This document shows positions 28,720 to 32,332 of a stretch of 64,000 bases of DNA, piece after piece. This DNA comes from Myroides albus (GTDB taxonomy: Bacteria; Bacteroidota; Bacteroidia; Flavobacteriales; Flavobacteriaceae). The position numbers were made by a program, and so were the translations under genes. The first letter of the stretch is position 1. The number at the start of each line of letters is the position of its first letter. The stretch is from assembly GCF_009711045.1 (NCBI RefSeq), contig NZ_WMJX01000001.1, forward strand, positions 124,001-188,000, read 5' to 3'. Under the pieces are notes generated by a model. That model searched no databases, was not told the DNA's origin, and saw nothing but the letters and a program-made list of their open reading frames with translations.

Positions 28720-28934
28720 TGATATAGTTAATGTTGAGGTATTAAAATTGTGGTATGTGAAATAATATTTGGATAAAAATTTGCATAAGATAAAATTATT
28801 TCGATATTTGTGATATTATGAAAATACAATGGGACGGTTTATTGGCTTATTTAAAGTTCCTCATCAAGAGAAATCCTGAATGAGGTAACATTACTTTTAT
28901 ATTATCTATTACCAACCAAAAAATATAAATAAGT

Positions 28935-30101
28935 ATGCCTTTATATCATCAATTAGGGAAAGTTCCCCCTAAACGTCACACCATTTTCCGAAAAGAGAAT
29001 GGGGACTTGTACTACGAACAATTATTCGGTACCATTGGATTTGACGGAATGTCTACCAATATGTACCATGTACACCGACCTACACAGGTAAAGAAGATTT
29101 TGGGGCAGTATAGTGTTGCGCCAAAAGTAGCCAAATCAAATAATATTCAATCTTATCGTTTTAGAGGGTTTGAAGTTCGACCGGAGGATGATTTTTTAGA
29201 AAGCCGTAAAGCTGTCTTGACCAATAGCGACTGTACCATTGTTTTGGCTGCTCCTAAGAAATCAACTGAGGATTACTTTTATAAAAATACGGATTCAGAT
29301 GAGTTAATCTTTGTTCATCGTGGCACGGGAACGTTGCGCACCATGTTGGGTAACTTAAAATTTGAATACGGAGATTACCTATTAATTCCCCGTGGAATAA
29401 TTTATAAAATGGACTTTGATACGCAGGACAATAGATTGTTTATTGTCGAGTCGCGTAGGCCTATTTACACACCGAAAAGATACCGCAATTGGTTTGGACA
29501 ACTACTTGAACATTCACCTTTTTGTGAACGCGATATTCGCAGACCAGATAAACTTGAAACACACGATGAAAAAGGTGATTTCTTGATTAAGGTACGCAAA
29601 CAAGATGAGATATTTGATATGATCTATGCTACACATCCATTTGATGTCGTGGGATATGATGGTTATAATTATCCATATGCTTTTTCTATTCACGATTTTG
29701 AACCTATTACAGGGAGGATTCACCAACCACCTCCTGTGCATCAAACATTCGAAACCGATGCCTTTGTAATTTGTTCATTTGTGCCAAGACTATATGACTA
29801 TCATCCAGAAGCGATACCTGCACCATATAATCATTCAAACATAGATAGTGATGAAGTTCTCTATTATGTAGATGGTGATTTTATGAGTAGAAATGATATT
29901 GCTGCGGGACATATTTCACTTCATCCTGCCGGAATCCCTCATGGACCACACCCTGGTGCGGCAGAGCGATCTATTGGTAAAGTTAGCACGGAAGAGTTAG
30001 CCGTGATGGTTGATACATTTAAGCCATTGATGGTAACAGAAGAAGCGATGAAGATTGCTGATGAGCAATATTACCAGTCTTGGTTAGATCCAGAAAATTA
30101 A
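28935..30101 (+). CDS. hmgA: Homogentisate 1,2-dioxygenase
   Basis: Opens the ring of homogentisate to maleylacetoacetate in tyrosine/phenylalanine breakdown. 388 residues in a cupin fold: an N-terminal barrel and a C-terminal iron site. Conserved stretches include MSTNMYHVHRPTQV, HSPFCERDIRRP and LHPAGIPHGPHPGA. Likely iron ligands are His and Glu in NHSNIDSDEVLYY and a His in the HGPHP motif; this is inferred from the family pattern. It is shorter than the human enzyme (445). hppD, the preceding step, is 30 bases downstream in the same operon. Only a weak -7 candidate (TACTTTTA, 28892-28899) was seen upstream. Confidence 0.93.
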   Translation: MPLYHQLGKVPPKRHTIFRKENGDLYYEQLFGTIGFDGMSTNMYHVHRPTQVKKILGQYSVAPKVAKSNNIQSYRFRGFEVRPEDDFLESRKAVLTNSDCTIVLAAPKKSTEDYFYKNTDSDELIFVHRGTGTLRTMLGNLKFEYGDYLLIPRGIIYKMDFDTQDNRLFIVESRRPIYTPKRYRNWFGQLLEHSPFCERDIRRPDKLETHDEKGDFLIKVRKQDEIFDMIYATHPFDVVGYDGYNYPYAFSIHDFEPITGRIHQPPPVHQTFETDAFVICSFVPRLYDYHPEAIPAPYNHSNIDSDEVLYYVDGDFMSRNDIAAGHISLHPAGIPHGPHPGAAERSIGKVSTEELAVMVDTFKPLMVTEEAMKIADEQYYQSWLDPEN

Positions 30102-30131
30102 GAAAAACAACAACTTAAAAAACTATAAATT

Positions 30132-31292
30132 ATGAGTAAAGAAGTCAAGTCTGTAGAATTTGGCTTGGAAAAAATATTTGAGGGAGCTCAAGATTTTTTG
30201 CCATTGTTAGGAACAGATTACGTTGAATTTATTGTTGGGAATGCGAAACAAGCAGCCCATTTTTATAAAACCGCTTTTGGTTTTCAGTCTTTAGCTTATG
30301 CAGGATTGGAAACGGGAGTGAGAGATAGAGCATCTTATGTATTAGTACAGGATAAAATACGCATTGTTTTGACTACTCCGTTGACTGCAGAATCTGAATT
30401 GAATAATCATATTGTACAACATGGAGATGGTGTAAAAGTCGTGGCTTTGTGGGTTGAAGATGCGCGTAAAGCTTATGAGGAAACAACAAGCCGTGGTGCG
30501 AAATCTTATTTGGAGCCAATCGTAGAGAAGGATGAATTTGGTGAAACCGTTAGAGCGGGTATATATACATACGGAGAAACGGTTCATATGTTTGTAGAAC
30601 GCAAGAACTACAATGGTGTATTTTTGCCTGGTTTTGTAAAGTGGGAAACAGATTATAACCCTGAACCAGTAGGATTAAAATATGTCGATCACATGGTGGG
30701 AAATGTTGGTTGGAACCAAATGAATACTTGGGTAAAGTGGTATGAGGATGTCATGGGGTTTGTAAACTTCTTGTCTTTTGATGACAAACAAATTAATACT
30801 GAGTACTCTGCACTGATGAGTAAAGTAATGTCGAATGGAAATGGAAGGATTAAGTTTCCAATTAATGAACCTGCAGAGGGAATGAAAAAATCTCAAGTCG
30901 AGGAGTATCTTGACTTCTATAATGGGGCGGGGGTACAACATATTGCTGTAGCTACAGATGATATTATCAAGACAGTTGCTGCTATGAAGCGTAGAGGTGT
31001 TGAATTTTTATCAGCTCCACCGCAATCTTACTACGATATGATTCCCAATCGCTTAGGTGTTCACATGGACATGATGAAAGAAGATATTAAAGAATTGCAG
31101 AAGTTAGGCATAATGATTGATGCTGATGAGGAAGGTTATCTATTGCAAATATTTACAAAACCTGTAGAAGATAGACCGACATTGTTTTTTGAAATAATCC
31201 AAAGAATGGGTGCCCGCGGTTTTGGTGCTGGTAACTTTAAGGCGTTATTTGAATCAATTGAAAGGGAGCAAGAAAAGCGAGGAACCCTTTAA
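30132..31292 (+). CDS. hppD: 4-Hydroxyphenylpyruvate dioxygenase
   Basis: Turns 4-hydroxyphenylpyruvate into homogentisate, the substrate of the upstream gene product. 386 residues with two vicinal-oxygen-chelate halves. The iron triad is His187 (YVDHMVGN), His270 (VQHIAVATDD) and Glu354 (LFFEIIQRMG); the C-terminal GARGFGAGNFKALFESIE is the family signature. It forms an operon with hmgA. No fumarylacetoacetase or maleylacetoacetate isomerase gene is in the window, so the pathway is completed elsewhere. No terminator directly follows. Confidence 0.97.
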   Translation: MSKEVKSVEFGLEKIFEGAQDFLPLLGTDYVEFIVGNAKQAAHFYKTAFGFQSLAYAGLETGVRDRASYVLVQDKIRIVLTTPLTAESELNNHIVQHGDGVKVVALWVEDARKAYEETTSRGAKSYLEPIVEKDEFGETVRAGIYTYGETVHMFVERKNYNGVFLPGFVKWETDYNPEPVGLKYVDHMVGNVGWNQMNTWVKWYEDVMGFVNFLSFDDKQINTEYSALMSKVMSNGNGRIKFPINEPAEGMKKSQVEEYLDFYNGAGVQHIAVATDDIIKTVAAMKRRGVEFLSAPPQSYYDMIPNRLGVHMDMMKEDIKELQKLGIMIDADEEGYLLQIFTKPVEDRPTLFFEIIQRMGARGFGAGNFKALFESIEREQEKRGTL

Positions 31293-31368
31293 AATTCAGT
31301 TAATTAAAACTTAAAAAACCAACATTTGAGAACTATTAAGTTAAATGTAAGTTAAAGCTAATTATGAG

Positions 31369-31399
31369 TTGACTTGCTAATGAAAAAGTTATACATTTG
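31369..31399 (+). promoter_or_regulatory. Strong promoter upstream of a candidate small RNA
   Basis: TTG (31369-31371), a 20-base spacer and TACATTTG (31392-31399) give a full match to the Bacteroidetes TTG-N17-23-TAnnTTTG pattern. Predicted transcription start is near 31405. Confidence 0.7.
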
Positions 31400-31404
31400 C
31401 ACTC

Positions 31405-31519
31405 GCAAAAATAAGGTCGTCATAAGCTTTATTTGAGTGTAATAAATTTTTCATAATTTATAGTTTTTTGGTTGGTTAATAGCATAAAAACTCAGTCATT
31501 TATTTGGCTGGGTTTTTTT
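31405..31519 (+). ncRNA. Candidate small non-coding RNA, about 115 nt
   Basis: A consensus promoter (31369-31399) is followed about 90 bases later by a hairpin terminator with a T7 run (31486-31520). The stretch between has no usable start codon or open frame. It contains an internal hairpin, ATAAATT (31442-31448) with AATTTAT (31455-31461). The next gene at 31553 has a separate promoter overlapping the terminator, so this transcript need not be its leader. I recognise no RNA family. It could instead be the 3' end of the hppD transcript. Existence is inferred from signals only. Confidence 0.45.
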
Positions 31520-31520
31520 G
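31486..31520 (+). terminator. Terminator of the candidate small RNA
   Basis: AAAACTCAGTC pairs with GGCTGGGTTTT (two G:U pairs), with loop 31498-31505, followed by a T run to 31518. Confidence 0.75.
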
Positions 31521-31533
31521 TTTGCTATTTTTG
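31503..31533 (+). promoter_or_regulatory. Promoter for DUF3108-kynA and following genes
   Basis: TTTG (31503-31506), a 19-base spacer and TATTTTTG (31526-31533). It overlaps the preceding terminator and gives a leader of about 14 bases before the ATG at 31553. Confidence 0.65.
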
Positions 31534-31552: not shown

Positions 31553-32332
31553 ATGAAAAAACTATTTCTTCTTCTTGTAATCTTCTTCCAAATTGGAAGT
31601 GTTGCAGCTCAGAAAAATGTAAAGGCATTTGACGCCGGTGAGTTTTTGAAGTTTCGTATCAGCTATGGAATTTTGAATGCGGGTATTGCAACATTGAAAT
31701 TAACAGAGACCGTTCAGAATGGTGTTCCTGTATTTCATGCACAAGGAATTGGCTATACTACTGGAGTGCCAAAGATGTTTTTTAAAGTATATGATGATTA
31801 TCAAAGTTATTTTGAACGCGATAAAGTGATCCCACATCGCTTTGTTCGAAAAATTGACGAAGGAGGATATACGAAGGATCAAGAAGGTTTTTTTGATTAC
31901 AAATCCAATAAAGTTTTAGTGAAAGACTACGAAAAGTCTAAGGAGAATACTTATCCTATCGTGAAAAACGTACAGGATATTGTTTCTGCATTTTACTATT
32001 TGAGAAAATATCCCAAGTTGAATGAACTGAAAAAGAATGAATCAGTAGAAATTGATATGTTCTTTGATGGGGAGGTATTTCGATTTAAGTTGAAATATTT
32101 AGGAGAGGAGACTTTAAAGACTAATTTTGGAAAAATAAAAACACTAAAGTTTAGACCTTACGTTATGGCAGGTCGCGTTTTTAAGGAAAAGGAAAGTTTG
32201 ACAGTATGGGTTTCGGCTGACAATAATAAAGTGCCTTTGCGAATTAAAGCCAGTTTAGCAGTAGGGTCTTTGAAAGCAGATTTGGAAGAGTTTAGTGGTT
32301 TAGTGTCGAAGTTGGAAGTTATAGGTAAATAG
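31553..32332 (+). CDS. DUF3108 exported protein
   Basis: 259 residues with a signal peptide (GSVAAQ, cleavage near residue 20). FDAGEFLKFRISYGILNAGIATLKL is the start of the DUF3108 domain; the rest is beta-rich, ending LRIKASLAVGSLKADLEEFSG. Function unknown; it is probably periplasmic. It is followed after three bases by the tryptophan 2,3-dioxygenase gene, and the run DUF3108-kynA-M23-pgi appears to be one transcript from the promoter at 31503. Confidence 0.83.
   Translation: MKKLFLLLVIFFQIGSVAAQKNVKAFDAGEFLKFRISYGILNAGIATLKLTETVQNGVPVFHAQGIGYTTGVPKMFFKVYDDYQSYFERDKVIPHRFVRKIDEGGYTKDQEGFFDYKSNKVLVKDYEKSKENTYPIVKNVQDIVSAFYYLRKYPKLNELKKNESVEIDMFFDGEVFRFKLKYLGEETLKTNFGKIKTLKFRPYVMAGRVFKEKESLTVWVSADNNKVPLRIKASLAVGSLKADLEEFSGLVSKLEVIGK

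Follow-up and report, generated by a model that had tools for sequence, protein, structure and literature searches.

Few trans-acting small RNAs (sRNAs) have been described in the Bacteroidetes, and how such RNAs act without Hfq or a Shine-Dalgarno sequence is an open question. In the text of PMC7366714, GibS of Bacteroides thetaiotaomicron is a largely unstructured RNA of 145 nt with a 5' seed; it pairs across the start codons of its targets, an adjacent operon is among the repressed genes, and its authors present it as the first trans-encoded Bacteroidetes sRNA with targets from a genome-wide screen. The text of PMC9723704 describes Rfp18 of Flavobacterium psychrophilum as a structured, genus-wide RNA whose third stem-loop is predicted to pair with metalloprotease and adhesin mRNAs; deletion of rfp18 lowered two protease mRNAs, which is positive regulation, and a homologue is expressed in F. 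columnare. In the same account Rfp13 and Rfp15 are also conserved and structured, and Rfp11 has a different (SM6) promoter. In the openly licensed literature covered here, at the level of titles and the first parts of abstracts, no RNA is described at an hppD-DUF3108 locus.

Between these two genes in a 64,000-nucleotide stretch of Myroides albus DNA (the window) lies what is almost certainly a conserved, stand-alone and intrinsically terminated small RNA gene of ~115 nt, judging from comparative sequence data. The best reading of its function, to which we give a probability of about 0.6, is that of a trans-acting, Hfq-independent sRNA that would pair at start codons in the manner of GibS. No Rfam family matches the predicted sRNA, which occurs almost throughout the genus and sits at the same locus in those relatives of the wider family that were examined. 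Its features are listed in Table 1.

Table 1. Coordinates of the predicted sRNA gene, its signals, its neighbours and its predicted target sites in the window, with the loci that lack an upstream hppD.
Feature	Position	Strand	Basis or remark
Predicted target site, hmgA 5' UTR and start (ATG 28935)	28903..28938	+	pairs with sRNA ~31452-31486
Predicted target site, hppD translation start (ATG 30132)	30111..30136	+	25 pairs with sRNA 31450-31474
hppD-type gene, upstream	30132..31292	+	orthologues via tblastn; name from the earlier note
Tandem GTTAAA-N5-GTTAAA, 11-bp spacing	31340..31356	+	exact match; presumably the operator for an activator of the sRNA promoter
-7 box TACATTTG (TAnnTTTG, primary sigma factor type)	31392..31399	+	sequence; consensus from PMC9723704
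Predicted sRNA	31404..31519	+	start 31404/31405 from box position; end ~31519
Stem-loop 1	31404..31439	+	fold; sequence variable but stem covarying; inner helix 31409-31417 / 31426-31434
Stem-loop 2	31442..31461	+	fold; AU-only stem 31442-31448 / 31455-31461; loop UUUCAU (anti-AUG)
Linker / weak stem-loop 3 (AGUUUUUUGGUUGGUUAAUAGCAU)	31462..31485	+	near-invariant; main predicted pairing segment
Stem of stem-loop 3	31471-31474 / 31480-31483	+	fold and covariation analysis
Intrinsic terminator hairpin and T run	31486..31519	+	hairpin 31486-31517, 13 pairs; T run to 31519
Separate DUF3108 promoter box TATTTTTG	31526..31533	+	sequence
DUF3108 gene, downstream	31553..32332	+	Pfam PF11306, E 3.4e-56
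Loci without hppD upstream	L051-L053, L063, L066, L085, L091, L104, L111		fetched stretch only

Taken as a single sequence the region is inconspicuous: a scan for sigma-70-type promoters returned nine against 10.8 expected in 3 kb, no better than chance, and a terminator scan returned two against 1.1 expected, which is weak. With such scans near chance, the reality of the gene is settled by comparison, through conservation, the TAnnTTTG box and covariation. The 115-nt RNA folds at -27.1 kcal/mol (z -4.78), a value reached by none of 200 shuffles, and the interval holds no open frame of at least 60 aa, where an earlier note made from the window sequence had seen no open frame; the internal AT-rich hairpin and the terminator that it listed are likewise present, and the terminator covaries among relatives.

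The promoter proposed in the earlier note, a TTG (31369-31371) separated by 20 nt from the -7 box, is present as described and is conserved in its downstream half only. TAnnTTTG lies just 5' of the predicted start in 76 of 76 copies (60 from genus genomes, 16 from named contigs, although loci L048 and L101 are apparently from one genome), and the TTG at -33 is not part of what is conserved, a TTG being found 17-21 nt 5' of the box in just 16 of 77 loci. The start was placed at 31404/31405 because the sigma-A box is located at -12 to -5 in the text of PMC9723704. What the loci share upstream is a GTTAAA element, whose first base lies from -55 to -51 in 76 of the 77; its profile was drawn from 72 distinct sequences, and simple shuffles carry GTTAAA anywhere within 110 nt in 7.5 loci. 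Family loci from other genera have GTTAAA upstream in 28 of 28 cases, 19 of which show GTTAA repeated in tandem; the tandem element in the window is not significant alone (three matches with at most one mismatch, against 1.73 expected). Direct repeats at 11-bp spacing are typical of OmpR/PhoB-class regulators.

The covariation analysis took in 66 distinct sequences and scored 30 pairs; 95.6% of the cells are paired and 13 pairs have two-sided changes. The score of 0.229 compares with 0.131 for shuffled alignments (0 of 500 as high) and with 0.02-0.09 for shifted registers, none of which exceeds 0.086. The two helices that covary are stem-loop 1, with two-sided changes in all six counted pairs and 85.6% of cells paired, and the terminator, with such changes in seven of 13 pairs and 99.4% of cells paired. 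Stem-loops 2 and 3 are near-constant within the genus and neither has a two-sided change there (94.2% of cells are paired in stem-loop 2); among the loci viewed from other genera, UUUCAUAAUUUA and GUUGGUUA are retained and stem-loop 2 has a stem of different sequence. Conservation of the hairpins in relatives had been named beforehand as one of the points on which the sRNA proposal could fail, and two helices are conserved with compensatory changes.

All of 61 genus genomes have a match to the intergenic DNA, and 383 of 398 to the sRNA by itself (E <= 1e-8). With genomes restricted to a completeness of 90% or more and a contamination of no more than 5%, coverage is 331 of 333, and 13 of the 15 genomes lacking a match are less than 90% complete. 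Of 249 family genomes, 116 have a match (E <= 0.01) to a covariance model built from the 66 distinct copies of the genus; the weak matches among them may be chance, and the other 133 genomes have none at that threshold. This is the search across the Flavobacteriaceae that the earlier note had called for, and it returned matches at the same locus in other genera: the best 28 matches outside the genus all share the layout as judged by eye, with DUF3108 within 1.5 kb in 27, hppD in 24 and a patatin-like gene in three, and in one relative (L167) another gene lies between the sRNA and hppD. Eight named Flavobacteriaceae contigs (L054-L061) have no motif upstream of DUF3108, and the best match of the first model there (E 0.0087) is far from the DUF3108 site. 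The predicted sRNA gene is kept in much of the Flavobacteriaceae beside DUF3108.

A second model, applied at the level of the order, has matches in 39 of 196 genomes at E <= 0.001, and all 22 matches with E below 1e-11 are in the sRNA's own family. Homologues throughout the order were considered and not accepted: the 11 genomes from outside the family have weak matches only (E 4.4e-5 to 8.7e-4), and the eight weak loci inspected, four outside the family (L244, L246-L248) and four within it (L241-L243, L245), have no hppD or DUF3108 within 1.5 kb. Two of the latter (L241 and L243) carry GTTGGTTAATAGC 5' of a terminator, and these elements are possible paralogues of the sRNA. In three genomes the model matches are paired and adjacent (G128:C1 245387-245673, G238:C7 237925-238321 and G284:C122 29495-29924), a possible tandem duplication.

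Membership of a described RNA family was also considered. Rfam gives no family at gathering thresholds (best sub-threshold E 0.74, 6S not included), and neither 6S nor any other Rfam family was accepted as the identity of the sRNA; the loci of five relatives gave just one distant Flavo-1 RNA (RF01705; L162:2955-3035), ~1.4 kb from the sRNA. A tRNA remnant, to which the 5' end and GGTTGGTTAATAGC bear some likeness by eye, was set aside when ARAGORN returned no tRNA or tmRNA for the sRNA, a search that a decayed remnant could escape.

The core of the sRNA, which consists of the UUUUCAU loop and UUUUUUGGUUGGUUAAUAG, is an antisense of the translation starts of flavobacteria, and we think it quite probable from this complementarity that the RNA base-pairs there. 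When pairing at -35 to +15 was compared with that of 40 dinucleotide shuffles, the core beat every shuffle both for the 43 window genes other than hmgA and hppD (z -2.9) and for 70 genes elsewhere (z -5.6). At +100 it has no advantage, 18 of 40 shuffles being as good for the window genes and nine of 40 for the genes elsewhere; at -150, 12 of 40 shuffles are at least as low for the window genes, and the core beats all 40 for the set of 67 genes elsewhere (z -2.1). For the pairing to form, stem-loop 2 would have to open its AU stem. The CAU and the U runs alone are expected to produce part of the pattern at start codons, since AUGAAAAA starts are common in AT-rich flavobacteria, and a genome-wide count of AACCAACC-N-ATGAAA gives 210 matches, of which 30 are the sRNA itself, where three controls give 140, 109 and 90, a modest excess.

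Apart from the sRNA itself, 26 antisense matches cover the core at E <= 0.001 (L122-L147; 25 in other genomes and one in its own), among them the orthologues L122/L129, L132/L138, L135/L137/L143 and L140/L141; four more cover the terminator only (L148-L151). By eye, 23 of the 26 lie on or beside the start of an open frame of at least 50 aa (the exceptions are L127, L134 and L144), which is partly expected because the antisense of the query contains ATGAAAAA. Weaker matches in the sRNA's own genome (L152-L161, E 0.07 to 0.8) fall on starts in six of ten cases. A Pfam scan of 19 candidates, significant and weak, names an M43 peptidase, a SusF/SusE protein with a T9SS tail, a sulfatase, an AhpC-TSA (redoxin) protein, a fasciclin, a lipocalin-like protein, a DUF885 protein and a rhodopsin among the significant matches, and a subtilase with a T9SS tail and an OmpW among weak own-genome matches at chance-level E (0.8). 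Lipoproteins or secreted proteins account for many of the matched starts, and several of the proteins are predicted lipoproteins as read from their N-termini.

The best own-genome lipoprotein match has E 3.5e-5, and its family was chosen for that reason; of 17 genomes that carry an sRNA of Myroides type, 15 have relatives of this lipoprotein. For 27 distinct starts of this family (30 loci) the mean pairing is -16.7 against -11.3 for the 43 window genes, with a Mann-Whitney p of 7.8e-6 that is too small because the starts are related sequences; with the linker against the upstream region only, p is 0.004. The family (L126, L154 and L256-L285) is large and divergent, with many copies in Myroides-type genomes and starts complementary to the sRNA, and it has a LapA-domain match below Pfam's cut-off.

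Among the 45 window genes the two strongest partners of the core are close neighbours of the sRNA. Pairing energies are -25.9 kcal/mol for hppD (rank 1) and -24.6 for hmgA (rank 2), with the next gene at -17.0, and BLAST finds sRNA residues 31451-31469 perfectly antisense to the hppD start (19/19 identical at 30117-30135). Cofolding net of internal structure keeps these ranks at -22.2 and -15.2, hmgA then being barely ahead of the next gene (-13.9); in the cofolds stem-loop 1 stays intact and the terminator nearly so. On balance, we think it more likely than not that hmgA and hppD are real targets in this organism.

This pairing is strong in one group of loci. In the 14 loci classed as Myroides-type on the closeness of their DUF3108 and hppD, mean pairing is -22.9 for hmgA, -19.1 for hppD and -12.7 for TDO, against weak means in the remaining loci of -9.8 for hmgA (49 loci) and -10.9 for hppD (51 loci), where only three hppD starts reach -18 to -20 (L049, L062 and L069). 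Because the complementarity is weak outside the Myroides-type loci, hmgA and hppD were rejected as a family-wide target, and their pairing cannot explain conservation across the family. We also considered a link between the CAU loop and hppD, as the loop has AAU instead in six of the nine hppD-less loci; these are possibly one clade, the string test is imperfect (L081, which has hppD, scored CAU from an upstream match and its loop reads UUUAAAAAUU), and nothing was drawn from it. Just 5' of hmgA, at 28818-28883 in the window, is a 21-codon frame (MKIQWDGLLAYLKFLIKRNPE), and a string resembling its end (AATCCnGArTrA) lies within 320 nt 5' of hmgA in 51 of 61 loci, which suggests a conserved small protein.

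Explanations that tie the element to a neighbouring gene have to contend with its behaviour across the 76 loci, in which it lies 3' of patatin, hmgA or hppD genes and, in 74, 5' of DUF3108. That constancy, together with DUF3108 on the 3' side in 27 of the 28 family loci, is what a 5' leader of DUF3108 would produce, an attenuator or riboswitch whose terminator stops transcription unless a signal permits read-through, and the linker AGUUUUU might compete with the AAAAACU of the terminator. We regard such a leader as improbable: the terminator is paired almost throughout, DUF3108 has a putative promoter of its own, the one described in the earlier note (a TTTG at 31503-31506 within the terminator, upstream of the separate box), and a second TAnnTTTG follows within 25 nt of the terminator in 73 of 76 loci. 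The sRNA also persists in L077 and L088, which have no DUF3108 in 3.3 and 5 kb downstream, and is therefore probably not its leader. Position directly 3' of hppD in most of the 76 loci would suit a terminated 3' UTR of hppD, the alternative that the earlier note had itself raised, or an sRNA processed from the hppD transcript. This we consider very improbable, for the sRNA has its own conserved promoter box and GTTAAA element and is kept in nine of the 76 loci without hppD in the 2.8 to 5 kb fetched upstream, and in L083 hppD is 3.1 kb away; it is not the tail of hppD, and its conserved, covarying hairpins support the independent sRNA that had been proposed. Nor is a coding function apparent: on the plus strand of the 76 loci the closed frames run from 3 to 23 codons without a common length and no frame is conserved. 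The reverse complement (AACCAACCAAAAAACTATAAATTATGAAAAA) reads as a typical start region for a small protein, so that a gene beginning on the minus strand might be imagined, and its ATG is kept in 69 of 76 loci. However, 54 of these frames stop after 2 to 29 codons, the other 15 reach the edge of the stretch at 29 to 32 codons without a stop, again with no common length, and both the promoter box and the terminator belong to the plus strand, making this the least probable of the explanations.

An sRNA that is conserved for a different activity is a more serious competitor, although we still judge it unlikely. It could act through a protein, whether RNA polymerase, as 6S does, or an RNA-binding protein, or as an RNA sponge, with the complementarity to starts reflecting AU richness. 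Four compact hairpins and a near-invariant core would suit a protein ligand, and the start-site signal comes in part from the CAU and U runs, with only a modest result in the pattern test. Against this, the peak at start sites is not reproduced by dinucleotide shuffles, and hppD is an extreme outlier in pairing with hmgA second; for the 6S form in particular there is no Rfam 6S match, and the fold has several hairpins and no single rod.

Under the GibS-like reading that we favour, an activator bound at the GTTAAA repeats would switch the sRNA on, and the UUUUCAU loop and the UUUUUUGGUUGGUUAAUAGC linker would pair across the start codon and the A-rich upstream region of target mRNAs. The duplex over the start would block ribosome loading and lower target expression without Hfq, a family for which the genome of the window has no match; repression is assumed because of the position of the pairing at the start. 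Its targets would in general be lipoproteins and proteins that are secreted or lie in the membrane, to which the neighbouring tyrosine-degradation genes hmgA and hppD would be added in the Myroides-type lineage. Specifically, this reading predicts a testable duplex of 25 pairs spanning the start of hppD, and the conserved promoter element could lead to the regulator. More speculatively, and with some doubt on our part, the sRNA may be a core regulatory RNA of the Flavobacteriaceae, controlled through GTTAAA, with an invariant core that serves as a general antisense of starts lacking a Shine-Dalgarno sequence and with targets determined by 5' UTR drift. If so, one Hfq-free RNA would gain and lose targets, such as hmgA and hppD in the Myroides-type lineage, as their 5' UTRs drift towards the consensus.

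RybB/MicA-type enterobacterial envelope sRNAs depend on Hfq and sigma-E. The sRNA described here resembles them as a single RNA predicted to pair near the starts of many mRNAs for envelope proteins, and differs in the absence of an Hfq match and in a promoter box of the TAnnTTTG type. The 6S-Flavo and Flavo-1 RNAs are flavobacterial noncoding RNAs as well, and neither matches it. Closer to hand is Rfp18, likened here by its description in the text of PMC9723704: both have wide genus conservation, the near-invariant pairing segment here includes stem-loop 3, and the start of an M43 metalloprotease gene is among the antisense matches (L136, E 3.2e-4), as a metalloprotease mRNA is among the predicted Rfp18 targets. 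Rfp18 acts positively, whereas pairing over start codons would normally repress. We put the chance that the two are orthologues at about even, with Rfp13 and Rfp15 as alternative identities; if the sRNA is Rfp18, its reach across the family, its locus, its promoter element and the hmgA and hppD sites would be additions to the text of PMC9723704. With GibS, as its published text describes it, the sRNA shares an intergenic position, a Rho-independent terminator and a place in a Bacteroidetes lineage that has no obvious homologue of Hfq or ProQ, as well as pairing over start codons and neighbouring genes among its targets, both predicted in the present case. It differs from GibS in having a 5' hairpin and a central to 3' pairing segment, and in belonging to the Flavobacteriaceae.
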